Under the pieces are notes generated by a model. That model saw only the letters and a program-made list of their open reading frames with translations, had not been told where the DNA came from and made no database searches. From Halanaerobiaceae bacterium (GTDB lineage Bacteria > Bacillota > Halanaerobiia > Halanaerobiales > DTU029), in NCBI GenBank assembly GCA_012518635.1, contig JAAYRT010000024.1, positions 1-41,692 on the forward strand: a DNA stretch of 41,692 bases. The letters are read 5' to 3'. Positions 7,333 through 27,252 of this stretch are shown one piece after another. The number at the start of each line of letters is the position of its first letter. Position 1 is the first letter of the stretch. Made by a program: the position numbers and the translations under genes.

Positions 7333-7396
7333 AAGAGGATTTTTTACCTTTATGTAGTATATAGAATTATACAGGTTTCATTTTAATAACATAAAA

Positions 7397-7477
7397 ACGG
7401 GGAGCCCTACGGAGGCTGAGAGGATGTTCGGCATCGACCCGCTGAACCTGATCCTGGTAATGCAGGCGCAGGGAAAA
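7397..7477 (+). promoter_or_regulatory. TPP riboswitch (THI element)
   Basis: The conserved THI-box core is directly readable: ACGGGGAGCCC at about 7397, GGCTGAGAGG at 7413, CGACCC near 7435, CTGAACCTGATC near 7442 and GGTAATGCAGGCGCAGGGAA at 7456-7475. These are the pyrimidine- and pyrophosphate-sensing halves of the thiamine pyrophosphate aptamer. It precedes thiT and thiN, a thiamine uptake gene and a thiamine pyrophosphokinase gene, so TPP feedback control is the obvious reading. No convincing dedicated promoter is visible between rpe and the aptamer. TTTACC near 7343 and TAGAAT near 7362 are too close together. Confidence 0.96.
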
Positions 7478-7508
7478 TATTTTCTTTGTTTTCGTTTTAT
7501 CTTTTTAT

Positions 7509-7550: not shown

Positions 7551-8096
7551 ATGGAAAAGAGAAGAATAAGATTACTGGCAGAGATGGGAGTTGCAGTTGC
7601 ATTAGCAGCAGTATTTAATTTTATAACCTTATTCAGGATGCCCCAGGGTGGTTCAGTAAACCTGGAGATGTTACCTATACTGGTTGTGGCTTTGCGTTGG
7701 GGTGGTATACCAGGAATCATAACAGGCCTGGTTTACGGCCTGGTCCAGTTAGCCCTGGATCCCTATGTGGTACATCCCTTTCAGTTTCTGCTGGATTATC
7801 CGCTGGCCTATATGATGGTGGGGATAGCAGGTTTTTTCAGGCTGAGGAATATGAGAGAAGGAGGAATTAAATTGTACCTCCATGTTTTACCAGGTATACT
7901 TCTGGCTGGTTTTGGACGTTTCCTGGCCCATTTCCTGACAGGGGTAATTTTCTTCAGTGAATTTGCTCCAGAGGGGCAGAAGGTCTGGCTTTATTCAGCA
8001 ATCTATAATGGAACCTATATTTTACCCTCAATTCTGATTGCCTATATTATCATCATTCCCATCCTGAGAAGATTATTTAAAAACGAGGGGTTATAG
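7551..8096 (+). CDS. thiT: ECF thiamine transporter substrate-binding subunit ThiT
   Basis: A 181-residue membrane protein with about six hydrophobic segments, the S-component of an energy-coupling-factor importer for thiamine. The N-terminal LLAEMGVAVALAAV and the segment GGSVNLEMLPILVVALRWG are typical of ThiT/YuaJ. ATPase (EcfA) and EcfT subunits are not in the window and would be supplied elsewhere, as in group II ECF systems. It is controlled by the TPP riboswitch, with the RBS inside the terminator hairpin. Its stop overlaps the GTG start of thiN by one base (TAGTG). Confidence 0.93.
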   Translation: MEKRRIRLLAEMGVAVALAAVFNFITLFRMPQGGSVNLEMLPILVVALRWGGIPGIITGLVYGLVQLALDPYVVHPFQFLLDYPLAYMMVGIAGFFRLRNMREGGIKLYLHVLPGILLAGFGRFLAHFLTGVIFFSEFAPEGQKVWLYSAIYNGTYILPSILIAYIIIIPILRRLFKNEGL

Positions 8097-19264: not shown

Positions 19265-21309
19265 AAAAAGAACTACCAAAGAGTGTTCAATTTGTTAAGG
19301 GGGTAGGCCCCCGTTATGCCAGCCTCCTGGAAAAGATTAATATTTATACTGTGGAGGATTTATTATATTATTTTCCCCGGGATTACCAGGACAGGAGGAA
19401 GCTGGCCAGGATTAAATATTTAAATATAGGGGAACTGGTCACCGTTGAAGGGGAAGTACTGAAAGTCTCTGAAGAAAAACCCAGGCCCGGCCTCAGTATC
19501 CTGAAGGTCACCTTTACTGATGGTACTGATGTGCTCAACGGGGTCTGGTTTAATCAACCCTATTTAAAAAAACAATTTAAAAAAGGGGAACGCTTTTTTC
19601 TCAGTGGTGAGTTAAATGAGAAAAGCTGGCGTTATGGAAAGAAAGAGATTTATAATCCAGTATATGAACAGGCAGATGAGGGGGAAAGTATCCATACCGG
19701 CCGGATAGTCCCCATTTATTCTTTAACCAGTGGAATGACTCAGAAGAGACTGAGGCAGATTATTTATAATGCCCTGGAAGAATATAGTTGTCATATGCCT
19801 GATTTGCTGCCGGAAAAATTAAAAAAGGAGTATGGCCTGCCGGATATAGCAGAGAGTATCCGGGGTTTGCATTTTCCTGAAGGCCGGAAAGATTATATCA
19901 GGGCCAGGGTCAGGCTGGCCTTTGAGGAGTTATTTTTATTGCAGTTGATGGTCCTGAAGAGAAAAAAGGGCAATCTGGAGAAAGCCGGTATTATCCACCG
20001 GAATTCCTCAGAGGTTATTGAAAAATTTCTGGCTGGTTTGCCCTTTAGGTTGACAGGAGCCCAGTACAGGGTCTGGAAGGAGATTGAAAGGGATATGGAA
20101 AAACCTGTCCCCATGCAGCGTCTCTTACAGGGGGATGTGGGTTCAGGTAAGACCATAATAGCCACTCTTGCCCTACTGAAGACCATGGCCAATGGTTATC
20201 AGGGCATCCTGATGGCTCCTACAGAAATCCTGGCTGAACAGCATTATCTAAAATTGAGTAAGCTGTTGCAGGATACCGGTTTCAGGATTGATTTGCTGAT
20301 TGGCAGTACCGGTACAGCAGAGCGCAAAAAAATTCTGGACGGTATTGCGGAAAACCGCACCAATCTGATAATAGGAACCCATACCCTTTTTCAGGAAGGG
20401 ATTGATTATTATAAACCTGGTTTGGTAGTCATTGATGAGCAGCACCGCTTTGGTGTGGAACAGCGTTTCCGCCTAAAAGAAAAGGGGGAAAACCCTGATC
20501 TGCTGGTCATGACAGCCACTCCTATCCCCAGGACCCTTGCCCTGACAGTCTATGGGGACCTGGATTTATCAGTCATTGATGAATTACCACCGGGCCGGAG
20601 TCCAATCATAACGATTTGGAAAAATGAAGAGGCCAGGATGGAAATATATAGATTTACCAGGGAGAAGATTGCTGAAGGACGTCAGGCCTACATAGTTGCA
20701 CCCCTTATTGAACCCTCTGAGGAGGTCAGGGCCATTTCTGCCCTGGAAATTTTTGAGGAATTGACAGAAAGTATTTTTCAGGATTTGAGGATTGGTCTTT
20801 TGCATGGCAGGGTTTCAGCAGATGAAAAGAATCAGATTATGGAGGAATTCCGGACCGGAAAGATAGATATCCTGGTTTCAACAACAGTGATTGAAGTGGG
20901 GATAGATGTGCCCAATGCCTCTATCATGATTATAGAAAATGCAGAGAGATTCGGCCTGGCCCAATTACACCAATTAAGGGGAAGAGTAGGCCGGGGCAGC
21001 CACCAATCCTATTGTTTTTTGCTGGGTAATCCTACCACAGAAGAAGGAAGACAGCGCCTGACGGTCATGACTGAAACCAGTGATGGTTTCAGGATAGCGG
21101 AAGAGGATTTAAAAATCCGCGGGCCGGGGGAATTTTTCGGTACAAAACAATCCGGGATGCCGGACCTGAAGGTAGCCAATATCCTGAAAGACCATAAGTT
21201 GATCAGGTTAGCCAGGCAGGAGGCGGAAAATATTATTAATATTGATCAGTGGCAGGATATTTACCGGGAACTCTATGAGAAGATTAATGTAATGGAACTT
21301 AAGGTCTAG
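19261..21309 (+). CDS. recG: ATP-dependent DNA helicase RecG
   Basis: A 682-residue branch-migration helicase for stalled forks and Holliday junctions. The N-terminal helix-hairpin-helix-like start VQFVKGVGPRYASLLEKI and OB/wedge domain (about 60-150) precede the SF2 helicase core: Walker A GDVGSGKT (291-298), DEQH (392-395), TATPIPRT, then STTVIEVGIDVPNA, QLRGRVGRG and the C-terminal GPGEFFGTKQSG motif of RecG. The ATG overlaps the fakB stop. The yloU-yloV-recG neighbourhood is conserved in Firmicutes (serine dehydratase genes sit between them in Bacillus). Confidence 0.97.
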   Translation: MKKELPKSVQFVKGVGPRYASLLEKINIYTVEDLLYYFPRDYQDRRKLARIKYLNIGELVTVEGEVLKVSEEKPRPGLSILKVTFTDGTDVLNGVWFNQPYLKKQFKKGERFFLSGELNEKSWRYGKKEIYNPVYEQADEGESIHTGRIVPIYSLTSGMTQKRLRQIIYNALEEYSCHMPDLLPEKLKKEYGLPDIAESIRGLHFPEGRKDYIRARVRLAFEELFLLQLMVLKRKKGNLEKAGIIHRNSSEVIEKFLAGLPFRLTGAQYRVWKEIERDMEKPVPMQRLLQGDVGSGKTIIATLALLKTMANGYQGILMAPTEILAEQHYLKLSKLLQDTGFRIDLLIGSTGTAERKKILDGIAENRTNLIIGTHTLFQEGIDYYKPGLVVIDEQHRFGVEQRFRLKEKGENPDLLVMTATPIPRTLALTVYGDLDLSVIDELPPGRSPIITIWKNEEARMEIYRFTREKIAEGRQAYIVAPLIEPSEEVRAISALEIFEELTESIFQDLRIGLLHGRVSADEKNQIMEEFRTGKIDILVSTTVIEVGIDVPNASIMIIENAERFGLAQLHQLRGRVGRGSHQSYCFLLGNPTTEEGRQRLTVMTETSDGFRIAEEDLKIRGPGEFFGTKQSGMPDLKVANILKDHKLIRLARQEAENIINIDQWQDIYRELYEKINVMELKV

Positions 21310-21335: not shown

Positions 21336-21475
21336 ATGTGGTTTTTTAGTAAGGGTTTTCCGGGAATGAAAAAGGGAGTTGACCAGGTCAACTCCCGGGG
21401 AGAGGAGAAATTGGAGGAAGAGTTTTAAAATGGGGAGGACTTAATATCTTACTCCTAAATCCTCATCCCTGAATG
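21336..21475 (+). other. Structured intergenic region after recG, with a possible 30-residue ORF
   Basis: Between recG and rsmD (287 nt) there is a near-perfect dyad, GGGAGTTGACC (21374-21384), one A, and GGTCAACTCCC (21386-21396). A second weaker pairing joins GGGGAGGA near 21432 with TCCT-CA-TCCC near 21460. No T run follows on the plus strand, but on the minus strand the first hairpin is followed by TTTTTC. A short ORF (21336-21428, ATG to TAA) reads through the dyad and ends in an acidic EEKLEEEF, without a clear ribosome site. This could be a leader, a small RNA or just a stem. The remaining 120 nt are AT-rich and empty. Confidence 0.4.
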
Positions 21476-21596: not shown

Positions 21597-22145
21597 ATGC
21601 GGATAATTGCTGGTGAAGCCGGTGGGAGGAGATTAAAGTCTATTAAGGGAAGTTCTACCAGGCCTACCTCTGACCGGATTAAAGAATCATTATTCAACAT
21701 TCTGTCACCCTATTTACCGGTAGGGCAGGGACTGGATCTTTTTGCTGGATTTGGCGGGCTGGGTATTGAAGCCCTTAGCCGGGGTGTGGCCCGGATGACT
21801 TTTGTTGAGAAGGATGTTAGAAACTGTAAGGTATTGAGGGAAAACCTGGCCATTGCTGGTTTTGAAAAAAGAGGCAAGCTTATCAGGGGAGATGTCTTTA
21901 GTTTTTTAAAGAAAACAGAGGACAGTTTTGACCTGGTCTTGATGGATCCACCCTACCAGAAAGATTATGTGATGGAGGCCATGAAACTGCTTCTGGAGAG
22001 GGATCTTTTGCGGAAAGAGGGCATAATTGCAGTAGAACATGAAGGGAATTTAAAACTGGAACAGCTAAGGGGTCTTTTTTTGCTTAAACATAAAGTTTAT
22101 GGTGATACTGCTTTGAGTGTTTTAAAAAAAGGGGGAGAGGAATAG
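21597..22145 (+). CDS. rsmD: 16S rRNA (guanine(966)-N(2))-methyltransferase RsmD
   Basis: A 182-residue SAM-dependent methylase for G966 of 16S rRNA (YlbH in Bacillus). MRIIAGEAGGRRLKS, then RPTSDRIKESLFNIL, the SAM loop LDLFAGFGGLGIEALSRG (near residues 44-61) and the catalytic tetrad LMDPPYQ (DPPY, near 119) are standard. GGAG at 21589-21592 precedes the ATG closely. It directly abuts coaD (stop TAG followed by ATG), the conserved ylbH-ylbI pair. Confidence 0.95.
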   Translation: MRIIAGEAGGRRLKSIKGSSTRPTSDRIKESLFNILSPYLPVGQGLDLFAGFGGLGIEALSRGVARMTFVEKDVRNCKVLRENLAIAGFEKRGKLIRGDVFSFLKKTEDSFDLVLMDPPYQKDYVMEAMKLLLERDLLRKEGIIAVEHEGNLKLEQLRGLFLLKHKVYGDTALSVLKKGGEE

Positions 22146-23971: not shown

Positions 23972-24000
23972 TTGACTAATATGCATAAACATGTTATCTT
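23972..24000 (+). promoter_or_regulatory. Candidate promoter for the DUF1015 gene
   Basis: TTGACT (23972-23977), a 17-nt spacer and TATCTT (23995-24000) in the divergent spacer between ylbJ and the DUF1015 gene. It leaves a leader of about 27 nt before the TTG start. Confidence 0.45.
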
Positions 24001-24033
24001 ATGTATAAAATTATTATTCAGGGAGGTTTTATA

Positions 24034-25338
24034 TTGGCACAGATATATCCCTTTAAAGGTTACCGGTATAATGTTGAAAAGGTAAAAGATCTGAATAAAG
24101 TAGTAACACAGCCTTATGACAGGATCGAAGCAGAAGATCAGGATAGATATTATCAGGCCAGTGAATATAATATAGTCAGGCTGATTCTAAATAAGGGTGA
24201 GGATGGCAAGGATAGATATGAGTCAGCAGCAGAATACCTGGAGAAATGGCTTGCTGAAGAAGTCCTGGTCCAGGATGGGCAGCCTTCCTTTTATGCTTAC
24301 TGGCAGGAATATGAAGTAGAGGGAGAAAAGAAGGTACGGAAGGGCTTTGTCGGTATGGGCAGGCTGGAAGGGGAAGAGACAGTCAAAGCCCATGAGAATA
24401 CCCTGGATGCTCCCAAAGAGGATCGTCTGAATTTGATGAGGGCAACAGAAGCAAACTTTGGCCATATCTTCATGCTCTACTCAGATGAGGAGCAGAGGAT
24501 AATAAACTTACTGGATAAGGCTGTCAAAGACTTGAATCCTGTTGCTGAAGTATATGATGAAGACGGGAATTTACATAGGTTATGGCAGATAAGTGATCCG
24601 GCCCTTCTGGAGGCTGTTCAGGAAGAGATGGAGGACAAGATTCTCTACATTGCCGACGGTCATCACCGCTATCAGACGGCGGTAAATTTCCGGAATGAAT
24701 GTCTGGCTAAAGGCTGGAAGTCAATCGGGGCAGAGGGTTTTGAAAACCGCCTGATGACCTTTGTCAACATAAATGATCCAGGTATCAGCATCCTGGCTAC
24801 CCACCGCCTGGTCCACAGCCTGGCAGACTTTGATCTGGAAAAATTCCTGGCTGCAGCAGAGGAGGAATTTATTATTAAGAAATTTACTACAGCTGCTGAA
24901 TTATATCAGGAACTGGATGAAAGCCAAAACAAACTTCATACCATCGGCCTGAAGACCAGAAAGGATTCCTTCTATTATACCCTGACCTTAAAGGATGTCT
25001 CCATCATGGAGAGCCTGGTGCCTGACCAGTCAAAGGCCTGGCGGGAACTGGATGTAGTTATATTGCATAAATTACTTTTGGAAAAATATCTGAGTATTGA
25101 TGAAAGGGCCCTGGCTGAAAACAGGAATATAGATTATATCCGTTACCGGGATAAGGCCCTGGAACTGTTGGAAAGTGATGCCAAGGAATACCAGGCCGCC
25201 TTTTTACTCAATCCAACTCCCATTGAAGCCCTGAAAAAGATAGCCGATGCGGGTGAAAGGATGCCCCAGAAATCCACAGATTTCTACCCCAAACTCCTTA
25301 CCGGGTTGGTCCTTACTAAATTAAATATACAGAAATAA
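24034..25338 (+). CDS. DUF1015 family protein
   Basis: A soluble protein of 434 residues of the DUF1015 (COG4198) family. The opening MAQIYPFKGYRYNVEKV, the stretch VVTQPYDRIEAEDQDRYYQASEYNIVRL, HENTLDAPKEDRLNLMRATEANFGHIF and the central ILYIADGHHRYQTAVNFRNE are family features. The conserved ADGHHRY suggests a catalytic or ligand site, but the reaction is not established. Family members often lie near serine biosynthesis genes (serA/serC), which is not so here. An upstream ATG at 24001 is in frame, but GGGAGG at 24021-24026 supports TTG at 24034. Confidence 0.85.
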   Translation: MAQIYPFKGYRYNVEKVKDLNKVVTQPYDRIEAEDQDRYYQASEYNIVRLILNKGEDGKDRYESAAEYLEKWLAEEVLVQDGQPSFYAYWQEYEVEGEKKVRKGFVGMGRLEGEETVKAHENTLDAPKEDRLNLMRATEANFGHIFMLYSDEEQRIINLLDKAVKDLNPVAEVYDEDGNLHRLWQISDPALLEAVQEEMEDKILYIADGHHRYQTAVNFRNECLAKGWKSIGAEGFENRLMTFVNINDPGISILATHRLVHSLADFDLEKFLAAAEEEFIIKKFTTAAELYQELDESQNKLHTIGLKTRKDSFYYTLTLKDVSIMESLVPDQSKAWRELDVVILHKLLLEKYLSIDERALAENRNIDYIRYRDKALELLESDAKEYQAAFLLNPTPIEALKKIADAGERMPQKSTDFYPKLLTGLVLTKLNIQK

Positions 25339-25349
25339 AGGCATGAAAG

Positions 25350-25394
25350 AACCCCCTTCTGGTTATAATAGAGGATAGTATTCCAGAAGGGGTT
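25350..25394 (+). promoter_or_regulatory. Inverted repeat around -10 element and RBS of the PNPOx-like gene
   Basis: CCCCTTCTGG (25353-25362) is the exact inverse of CCAGAAGGGG (25383-25392), extended by AA/TT with one bulged C. The 20-nt centre contains a TATAAT (25364-25369). The right arm is the ribosome binding site for the ATG at 25402. It may be an operator flanking the promoter, or in read-through transcripts an RBS-masking hairpin. A matching -35 is weak. Confidence 0.6.
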
Positions 25395-25401
25395 GATTTA
25401 T

Positions 25402-25899
25402 ATGAATAGGATCATGAATCCTGTTGAACTGAAAGAACATATCCGGGAATTTTTAAAGGAACACCGCCAGGCCTCCCTGGCTACCTGTCTGAAAAATATA
25501 CCCCGCAGTAGTCCGGTTCAGTATTTCCTGGGCCATGATCTGGATATTTATGTCTGTTCTGCCGGTGGGGAAAAATTTAAGGCTATAGCCGAAAATCCTC
25601 TTGTTTGTCTACTGGTCAATACAGAATATATTAATTACCGGCGGATCAAGGGTGTACAGGTCTTTGGACTGGCCAAAAGCAGTACAGAGAATCCTTACCT
25701 GGCCGATGAAGCGAAGTTCTATGCCCCTGATCCCTATCTTCTTGATTATGTTGGGGAGGGTTTGAAGGTGATTAAAATCCTCCCCCATGAAATTGTTTAC
25801 CTGAATTCCCTGGAAAAGGGGGACAGGACCAAACAGATATTGAAACTGAATACTGTTGAGTTAAAGGAAGAAGAGGAGGAACTTGCCATAAAGCACTGA
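25402..25899 (+). CDS. Pyridoxamine 5'-phosphate oxidase-like flavin-binding protein
   Basis: A 165-residue protein with the split-barrel fold of the PNPOx family. The opening helix PVELKEHIREFLKEHRQASLATCLKNIPRSSPVQYFLGHDLDIYVCS is followed by GGEKFKAIAENPLVCLLVNTEY, the usual layout of FMN- or F420-binding general-stress-type members. It is too divergent and short to be true PdxH. AGAAGGGG about 9 nt upstream favours ATG 25402 over the TTG at 25393. Its acidic tail (ELKEEEEELAIKH) is unusual. The gene stands alone between a dyad-flanked promoter and a terminator, so it is probably regulated individually. The substrate is unknown. Confidence 0.78.
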   Translation: MNRIMNPVELKEHIREFLKEHRQASLATCLKNIPRSSPVQYFLGHDLDIYVCSAGGEKFKAIAENPLVCLLVNTEYINYRRIKGVQVFGLAKSSTENPYLADEAKFYAPDPYLLDYVGEGLKVIKILPHEIVYLNSLEKGDRTKQILKLNTVELKEEEEELAIKH

Positions 25900-25918
25900 T
25901 GTTTTATGGTTTTTTTTA
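25886..25918 (+). terminator. Terminator overlapping the PNPOx-like stop codon
   Basis: CCATAAA (25886-25892) pairs with TTTATGG (25903-25909), followed by TTTTTTTT. The stem encloses the gene's TGA stop. Confidence 0.75.
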
Positions 25919-25919
25919 T

Positions 25920-25969
25920 TTGCCCACAGAACAAATGTATGGTAAAATAAGAATACCAAACAAATGTTC
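25920..25969 (+). promoter_or_regulatory. Promoter with two LexA-like boxes (SOS control of the Y-family polymerase)
   Basis: TTGCCC (25920-25925), 17 nt, TAAAAT (25943-25948). Two sites resemble the Gram-positive LexA/DinR core GAAC-N4-GTTC: GAACAAATGTAT (25929-25940) within the spacer, and AAACAAATGTTC (25958-25969) just after the -10. Each has one or two mismatches. Their placement over the promoter of a lesion-bypass polymerase supports SOS control. Confidence 0.6.
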
Positions 25970-25995: not shown

Positions 25996-27252
25996 ATGGA
26001 GATTGATTATGAAGAATTACCTGACAATAAAATACTTTGTGTTGATATGAGGTCTTTTTATGCCAGTGTCGAGGCTGTTGAGCATGGTTGGGATCCCCTG
26101 GAGGTCTGTCTGGCAGTAGTAGGGGATAAAAACCGTTCTGGTTCTGTGGTACTGGCTGCCTCTCCTGCTTTAAAGGAAAAATATAATATTAAAACCGGTA
26201 GCAGATTATATGAGATTCCGCAAAAGAAAGAGATTAAGATAGTGGAAGCCAGGATGGGGTTATATCTACAACGCTCCCTGGAGATTACCCTTTTATTTAG
26301 GGATTTTGTACCCCTTGACGCCATCCATGTTTATTCCATTGATGAGTCCTGGTTAAAGCTGGCGGGAACTGAACGATTATATGGGGATAAGATGCAGGTT
26401 GCCAGGATGATCAGGGAAAGGATAGAGAAGGAGTTTACCCTGCCCTGCAGTATGGGGATCGGCCCCAATATGTTCCTGGCCAAGGTAGCCATGGATATAG
26501 AAGGGAAGAGAAAAGGCCTGGTGGAATGGTCCTATGCTGATGTCAAGGAGAAATTATGGCCGGTTCCTGTTGAGAAATGTTGGGGAATAGGGAAGAGGAT
26601 GAGCAGATGGTTTAAAAAGATGGGGGTATATACAGTGGGAGATATAGCCCGGCTGCCCCTGGAATTTCTGGAAGACCGTTTCGGGATTATGGGAAATCAA
26701 CTTTATTATCACGCCTGGGGTGTTGACCTCTCAAAGCTGGAGGGTCATTATAATGACCCCCGTAAGGCCATTGGCAGGGGTATTACCCTGTTTAAGGATT
26801 ATAATAATGAAGAGGAGATAAAGACCGTCATTTTCGATCTGGCAGAGGAGGTAGGTAAACGGGCCCGGGATAGTAATCTGGCCGGGAAAACAGTCATTCT
26901 AGGCATCGGTTATAGCAAAAGGGAGAAAGAACCGGGTTTTCATTTGCAGAGGACGGTAGAAGCCTACACCAATCTGACCAGTGATATCTACCGGCTGGCC
27001 CTGGAGTTATTTGCTGAGAATTATCAGGGCCAGGCAGTGAGGAAAATAAGCCTGGCCCTGGGGAATCTGACGTCATCCCGGGATCTGCAGTTAAATTTGT
27101 TTACTGATCAGTCAAAGGAAATTAAACTGGCCAGAATCAAGGATAGGCTTGAAAATAAATATGGCTATAAGGCTCTCTTTTTTGGCAAAAGTTTGCGTTC
27201 CGGCAGTGTCAGGGAAAGGATCAAGACAACAATCGGCGGCCATGGCAGTTAA
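25996..27252 (+). CDS. Y-family DNA polymerase (UvrX/PolY2-like translesion polymerase)
   Basis: A 418-residue lesion-bypass polymerase. Catalytic acidic motifs are VDMRSFYASVEA (Asp near residue 19, Tyr in the steric-gate position) and YSIDESWLKL (SIDE). CSMGIGPNMFLAKVAMD and the helix-hairpin-helix region CWGIGKRMSRWFKKMGVYTVGDIARLP follow. The little-finger domain continues to a beta-clamp binding motif QLNLF near residue 370. The sequence pattern fits the YqjW/UvrX branch better than DinB/PolIV. GAAGGGG precedes ATG 25996. LexA-like boxes lie over its promoter. It converges on the SRAP gene, sharing a TTAA at the two stops. Confidence 0.9.
   Translation: MEIDYEELPDNKILCVDMRSFYASVEAVEHGWDPLEVCLAVVGDKNRSGSVVLAASPALKEKYNIKTGSRLYEIPQKKEIKIVEARMGLYLQRSLEITLLFRDFVPLDAIHVYSIDESWLKLAGTERLYGDKMQVARMIRERIEKEFTLPCSMGIGPNMFLAKVAMDIEGKRKGLVEWSYADVKEKLWPVPVEKCWGIGKRMSRWFKKMGVYTVGDIARLPLEFLEDRFGIMGNQLYYHAWGVDLSKLEGHYNDPRKAIGRGITLFKDYNNEEEIKTVIFDLAEEVGKRARDSNLAGKTVILGIGYSKREKEPGFHLQRTVEAYTNLTSDIYRLALELFAENYQGQAVRKISLALGNLTSSRDLQLNLFTDQSKEIKLARIKDRLENKYGYKALFFGKSLRSGSVRERIKTTIGGHGS

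Follow-up and report, generated by a model that had tools for sequence, protein, structure and literature searches.

The window analysed here, a stretch of 41,692 nucleotides of a Halanaerobiaceae bacterium, contains a short gene of the PNPOx_N family directly behind a co-directional DUF1015 gene. No terminator was found between the two by a terminator scan that admits loops of 3-8 only. The DUF1015 open reading frame stops 14 nt short of an inverted repeat in the PNPOx leader. The two arms, CCCCTTCTGG (25353-25362) and CCAGAAGGGG (25383-25392), are perfect inverse complements with a spacing of 20 nt. TATAAT (25364-25369) lies between them, and the Shine–Dalgarno (SD) sequence AGAAGGGG (25385-25392) is located inside the right arm, 9 nt before the ATG at 25402. 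A preliminary description of this DNA had reported a perfect 10-bp inverted repeat with TATAAT inside it and the ribosome binding site in its right arm, and all of its coordinates were confirmed. Genes, SD sequences and upstream neighbours were called with simple scripts rather than with a gene finder. The features of the locus are as follows.

23972-24000, plus strand: candidate promoter of the DUF1015 gene, sigma-A-like TTGACT-17-TATCTT, from a consensus scan and of unproven function
24034-25338, plus strand: DUF1015 gene (PF06245, 305.5 bits) within the open reading frame 24001-25338, presumed source of read-through RNA
24034, plus strand: probable TTG start of the DUF1015 gene behind AGGGAGG, chosen by reading the sequence
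25341-25345, plus strand: -35 element GCATG of a putative sigma-F-type promoter
25353-25362, plus strand: left (anti-SD) arm CCCCTTCTGG, which lies within the -35/-10 spacer and reaches into the GG of the -10 element
25361-25370, plus strand: putative -10 element GGTTATAATA, containing TATAAT
25376, plus strand: predicted transcription start, placed from the spacing about 6-7 nt past the -10 element
25383-25392, plus strand: right arm CCAGAAGGGG, with the SD sequence at 25385-25392
25402-25899, plus strand: PNPOx_N-family gene with ATG start, 165 aa (PF01243, 42.9 bits)
25885-25910, plus strand: terminator-like hairpin where the PNPOx gene ends, from the terminator scan

The PNPOx protein matched Pfam PNPOx_N only, with no match at E 0.001 in PHROGs, NCBIfam or the PDB sequences. 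In Rfam, nothing reached the gathering score at the dyad site, where seven matches lay far below their gathering scores.

Other features were also observed in the window. Two boxes, GAACAAATGT and ACAAATGTTC (25929-25969), which we take to be LexA-like, precede a gene named as Y-family-polymerase-like from a reading of its sequence alone, and this gene contains a perfect 18-bp palindrome, GGGTCATTATAATGACCC (26742-26759). A TPP riboswitch (RF00059, 66.3 bits) lies at 7388-7492, before a gene predicted at 7551. A further hairpin, GGGAGTTGAC/GTCAACTCCC (21374-21396), is located between an open reading frame ending at 21309 and another starting at 21597, and its arms are present in both sister contigs.

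Conservation of the dyad and predicted opening of the ribosome site

Taken alone, the PNPOx dyad is just moderately unusual. The isolated leader fold has a z score of -2.09, and 9 of 200 shuffles were equally stable. Perfect inverted repeats of this class are not rare in the window, in which 8 of at least 10 bp with a spacing of 3-60 nt were counted (mean 3.1, sd 1.8, in 10 Markov shuffles). The dyad 10-mer was found 2 times in the window against 0.19 expected, with at least two in 1 of 100 shuffles, and TATAAT, present at -65 to -20 in 50 of 289 genes, is nothing special by itself. The dyad rises above chance because it is conserved in the genus.

Three genomes of the genus, 73, 90 and 95% complete, were compared, the first being that of the window (G000, 1.48 Mb). 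The 10-bp arm pair occurs once in G000, and CTTCTGG-N{8,38}-CCAGAAG has exactly one copy in each of the three genomes, at the PNPOx locus. The preliminary description had proposed a genome search for arm pairs, which yields this one copy per genome, and had regarded loss of the dyad in close relatives as telling against its reading; no such loss was seen, the core being kept in both sister species. Invariant across the three genomes are a block, CTTCTGGTTATAATA, and the sequence CCAGAAGGGGTTG; both arm cores, the -10 element and an upstream GG(C/T)ATGAAA are retained, while much of the loop drifts. The stem has 12 perfect bp in G001. In G002, it is reduced to a 7-bp core, as three outer pairs have been lost on the left, and the loop measures 26 nt, as compared with 20 nt in the other two species. 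Since the stem core is invariant, covariation across the three genomes is uninformative at this stem and lends no support. There is no dyad regulon, the dyad being single-copy per genome, and near matches to CTTCTGGTTATAATA (2 mismatches) are about as frequent in the three genomes as in a reversed control (56 versus 47). As a separate observation, CCAGAAGGGGTTG, the right arm with TTG, was found 27 times with at most one mismatch in the three genomes, versus 8 times in the reversed control, and it is perhaps a favoured ribosome-site sequence.

Relatives of the PNPOx protein at E 1e-10 or better are present in 7 of 59 genomes of the class, namely the three genus genomes and four distant ones. 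The proteins of G001 and G002 match that of the window at 87%, and the four distant ones at 42-48%. The PNPOx gene of Clostridium sp. Cult3, at 66% identity, has a divergent neighbour in front and no such hairpin, and an SD-hiding hairpin is missing at 4 of 5 distant PNPOx homologues. At one distant PNPOx gene (L008, about 1420-1489, in G054), CCCTTCTT pairs with the SD sequence and TATAAT lies between them. This is a weaker look-alike, with a long-minus-short difference of 4.6 kcal/mol in the computation described below, and it was left out of the layout counts.

The cost of opening the SD sequence was computed for a long RNA beginning at -110 and for a short one beginning at -28, in 278 predicted genes with an SD sequence from the window and two sister contigs; these genes are not independent, because the sister contigs share many orthologues. 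The long-minus-short difference was 10.0 kcal/mol in G001, 8.6 in the window and 6.1 in G002, which places the three PNPOx genes at ranks 1, 2 and 4 of the 278. With varied 5' ends, the cost was 11.5-15.8 for long versus 2.8-2.9 kcal/mol for short RNA in the window, 17.0-20.4 versus 5.7-7.6 in G001, where some folding persists in the short RNA, and 4.4-11.0 versus 1.1-3.4 in G002. For the window and G001 together, the gap persists for 5' ends from -60 to -400 (11.5-20.4 versus 2.8-7.6 kcal/mol), whereas a 400-nt leader lowers the long-RNA cost in G002 to 4.4 kcal/mol. When the left arm alone was shuffled, none of 300 sequences reached the real cost in any of the three species. Pairing of the SD sequence in read-through RNA is thus a computational prediction for all three PNPOx orthologues.

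The putative nested promoter

The promoter nested between the arms is probably, to judge from its letters, a forespore promoter of the sigma-F type, GCATG-N15-GGTTATAATA, and not an ordinary sigma-70 box. Promoter-like sequence between the arms is conserved in the genus, the element being GCATG-N15-GGTTATAATA in the window and in G001 and GTATG-N14 in G002. A sigma-F-type -35/-10 match with 14-15 nt spacing is found at all three PNPOx orthologues, and it resembles what we take to be the sigma-F consensus. A sigma-70 scan revealed no -35 element near TTGACA at this promoter. In other words, the TATAAT that the preliminary description had read as a -10 box is present, but it is better read within a sigma-F-type promoter. 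According to one report, the majority of sigma-F promoters have a spacing of 15 nt, and sigG has 14 nt (PMC5942855).

A search upstream of 289 genes for GYATR-N14/15-GGNNANANTR returned 5 matches versus 0.2 expected from Markov shuffles, at the three PNPOx genes and at a LysM-M23 pair. Genome-wide, the pattern was found 97 times in the three genomes versus 52 in a reversed control, so many single matches are due to chance. It is also partly fitted to PNPOx, because R at the last place of the -35 element was allowed for the sake of this gene, whose GCATG/GTATG is weaker than the GTATA of the sigG, SpoIIQ-like, LysM-M23 and gpr sites. The pattern is conserved between genes before sigG, a SpoIIQ-like gene, LysM-M23 and a gene for a SPOR-domain protein (each in 3 of 3 genomes), before genes for a PrsW-family protein and a secreted protein (each in 2 of 3), and, in the 2 genomes with an identified gpr, before a small gene that precedes it, the small gene and gpr presumably forming one operon. 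For these names, one representative of each was searched, and sigG was identified by a sigma-factor match and its place behind sigE. Directly upstream of spoIIR (0/3), of gpr itself (0/2) and of SASP genes (0/12, from 12 of 16 SASP matches), the strict pattern was absent, as it was from the three sigma-factor upstream regions scanned in two distant genomes. All four distant Halanaerobiia PNPOx homologues have CATACTA 38-41 nt before the start, one of them with GCATA 17 nt further upstream, and CATACTA is presumably a sigma-G-type -10 element.

Matches to sporulation proteins indicate that the genus carries sporulation genes. SASPs were above the cut-off in all three genomes and GPR in two of them, while the SpoIIR matches (3/3 genomes) were all under the cut-off. 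Each of the three genomes has two strong SigF/SigG-like proteins, all under the curated cut-off of a sigma-factor model that also gives matches in 11 of 14 control genomes.

Recurrence of the nested layout

The same layout was found at further genes. The 99 unique pattern sites were reduced to 31 candidates that a script judged non-coding and that were followed by an SD sequence and an open reading frame, 68 being dropped. Among these 31, seven pair more strongly than all 200 of their spacer shuffles: the three PNPOx sites, three SpoIIQ-like sites and L110. For L091/L140, a pair of secreted-protein sites, the result is intermediate (4 and 6 of 200 shuffles).

The SpoIIQ-like M23 gene lies directly behind spoIID in all three genomes; its spacer holds TATCCACCTTCTG, its loop the -10 element, and CAGGAGGTGGATA covers the ribosome site. 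The hairpin of 13-15 bp is located at 2249-2301 of L173 (G000:C66), and also in L171 and L127. In G000, its fold has a z score of -5.23, and none of 200 shuffles was as stable. The spoIID gene of G000 matches TIGR02870 at 309.6 bits versus a cut-off of 234.75, and those of the other two genomes were identified by reading. The name SpoIIQ-like rests on the place behind spoIID and on the M23 domain, the score against the SpoIIQ model being far below its cut-off (50.5 vs 250 bits). L110, also L172 (G002:C53), concerns a membrane-protein gene with the arms TCCCTGGCT and AGCCAGGGA and the same nested promoter and hairpin. Its protein has no match in Pfam or NCBIfam, and the upstream open reading frame, cut at the contig end, stops at the -35 element. 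PNPOx and SpoIIQ-like arms have CTTCTG in common, but whole arms differ between genes, and at PNPOx, SpoIIQ-like and L110 each arm is complementary to the SD sequence of its own gene. That arms differ and yet each matches its own SD sequence favours RNA pairing over a protein operator.

The position of the gene in front also distinguishes these sites. In 22 of the 31 candidates, the -10 element is within 60 nt of the start; the nine beyond 60 nt were left out. The hairpin is present at 7 of 7 sites where a co-directional open frame ends no more than 36 nt upstream with no terminator in between, and at 0 of the 15 others. A terminator-like hairpin is found instead at nine of the 15 (sigG 3, LysM-M23 3, L091/L140 and the PrsW gene of G000). 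Neither structure is present at the other six (the gpr leader 2, SPOR 3 and the PrsW gene of G001), which are farther from the gene in front or have no such gene that was found. Counted by gene family, the split, which was noticed post hoc in three close genomes, is 3/3 versus 0/6 (p 0.012, or 0.036 without L110). Overall, the proposal of the preliminary description that translation depends on which promoter is used is well supported computationally by the opening costs, the left-arm shuffles, the conservation and this recurrence.

Proposed mechanism, alternatives and known parallels

We consider it likely that a sigma-F-like promoter nested in a hairpin that hides the ribosome site would silence read-through RNA and spare forespore RNA. 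The analysis shows the sequence parts, their conservation, the predicted folds and the recurrence of the layout; which sigma factor acts, where the RNA starts, that read-through RNA exists and how translation is affected are inferred. RNA read through from DUF1015 would contain both arms and fold, leaving PNPOx untranslated, whereas RNA from the nested promoter would start past the left arm, be unable to form this fold and be translated. The hairpin would in this way insulate the spore-stage PNPOx gene from the gene in front, a role that a terminator may play at several other genes of the set. A broader proposal, which we advance tentatively and to which we give slightly less than an even chance, is that forespore genes directly behind another gene are routinely insulated in these Halanaerobiales by an anti-SD arm in the -35/-10 spacer. 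Translation, in addition to transcription, would then enforce cell-type specificity, spoIID RNA of the mother cell would make no SpoIIQ-like protein and vegetative DUF1015 RNA no PNPOx protein, and terminators would serve alike at several other sigma-F genes.

Other explanations of the site may be weighed against this one. The nested promoter could be an ordinary sigma-A promoter with the same start-site logic, and PNPOx would then not be a spore gene. TATAAT is perfect and fits sigma-A as well, and there is no need for a PNPOx-like oxidoreductase to belong to the spore. This is nevertheless unlikely in our view: the promoter lacks a -35 element near TTGACA and is absent from the sigma-70 scan list, what is conserved upstream is GCATG/GTATG at 14-15 nt, the -10 element GGTTATAATA is similar to its counterparts at the sigG, SpoIIQ-like and gpr-operon sites, and CATACTA, which we take to be sigma-G-like, stands at 4 of 4 distant Halanaerobiia homologues. 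It is also conceivable that promoter and SD sequence, each conserved separately, happen to pair. The left arm shares bases with the promoter, as the right arm does with the SD sequence, so that each has another reason for conservation, and G002 keeps just the 7-bp core. Such a coincidence has a very slight probability given the 12 perfect pairs of G001, the absence of CTTCT from other sigma-F-type sites except the SpoIIQ-like one, where it is again within the arm, the failure of all 200 spacer shuffles to reach the PNPOx pairing in each of the three orthologues, and the recurrence of the layout at two further genes.

Further readings assign the dyad itself to another purpose. The preliminary description had offered an operator for a repressor as its alternative, and a perfect dyad around a -10 box would suit a dimer or tetramer bound over the promoter. 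This is disfavoured, and we attach minimal weight to it, because there is one site per genome, because the loop grows from 20 to 26 nt in G002 (6 bp, about half a helical turn, so that arm spacing is not phase-fixed), and because the SpoIIQ-like and L110 sites have the layout in common but not the whole arm sequence; moreover, the outer bases were lost from one arm only. That the hairpin acts mainly on DUF1015 read-through, as an intrinsic terminator or attenuator, seems quite improbable, although the stem is GC-rich with some T after it and ATATTTTTTATG follows the SpoIIQ-like hairpin. The PNPOx loops of 20-26 nt and the poor T runs (TTGATTTA, TTGTTATC) do not fit it, the PNPOx hairpin is missing from the terminator scan (loops 3-8 only), L110 has no T run, and the property common to the sites is SD pairing; for the PNPOx gene, the outcome of such a terminator would be the same. 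Finally, ribosomes finishing DUF1015, which stops just 14 nt ahead of the left arm, could open the hairpin, and translation of read-through RNA would then keep pace with that of DUF1015. Such translational coupling appears very improbable, since the DUF1015 stop lies before the stem and not within it, and in G002 DUF1015 ends 36 nt before the -35 element, hence still farther from the arm.

The silencing of read-through RNA by a nested hairpin is known in kind; what would be new is that several forespore genes use it. In B. subtilis, as PMC5942855 describes, sigG (spoIIIG) lies behind spoIIGA-sigE with a sigma-F promoter of 14 nt spacing, and it is proposed there that RNA from its own promoter cannot form the hairpin. 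The locus described here resembles sigG in having a putative sigma-F-type promoter and a hairpin predicted to be impossible in own-promoter RNA, but differs in concerning a PNPOx-family gene of another bacterial class, in its shorter stem (7-12 pairs) and in the position of the arm in the -35/-10 spacer. The sigG gene of the genus itself, unlike that of B. subtilis, is separated from sigE by a terminator and lacks such a hairpin. The preliminary description had called the layout unusual for a PNPOx-like gene; with a sigma-F-type promoter, it would have a precedent in sporulation, namely B. subtilis sigG, and would not be odd for PNPOx.

Phage genes offer a second precedent. According to the sources, long early RNAs of phage T4 gene e (lysozyme) fold over and hide the ribosome site, as proposed for PNPOx, and lysozyme synthesis from them is 100-fold lower (PMC3014915); late-promoter RNA of T4 I-TevI, related homing endonuclease genes and Aeh1 mobE cannot form the hairpin at the ribosome binding site, and I-TevI also binds an operator over its own late promoter (PMC2988022). 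The start-site logic is described there as established for gene e and I-TevI (PMC3014915, PMC2988022). Unlike PNPOx, gene e uses phage late promoters and is not a host developmental gene, while I-TevI and Aeh1 mobE are mobile endonuclease genes. Axe-Txe was considered as a parallel and set aside, as its arrangement differs. The transposases of IS10 and IS50 share the fold logic with PNPOx, read-through RNA being untranslated through a fold missing from native RNA, but they are placed at transposon ends. In the open-access literature, repeated use with an anti-SD arm in the promoter spacer was not found in print, and nothing relevant beyond the sigG paper was found on a forespore PNPOx or on read-through hairpins at other forespore genes.

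If the proposed mechanism is correct, a device familiar from individual examples, namely B. subtilis sigG and T4 late genes, would be reused within one genome, and the hairpin would represent an alternative to terminators between spore genes. This would give a searchable rule for any endospore former: an anti-SD sequence in a forespore promoter spacer behind another gene. As spoIID is a mother-cell gene in B. subtilis, the hairpin would also explain how a SpoIIQ-like gene directly behind it could stay silent in the mother cell. Moreover, the PNPOx-like protein, which is uncharacterised, would be a likely product of the forespore.
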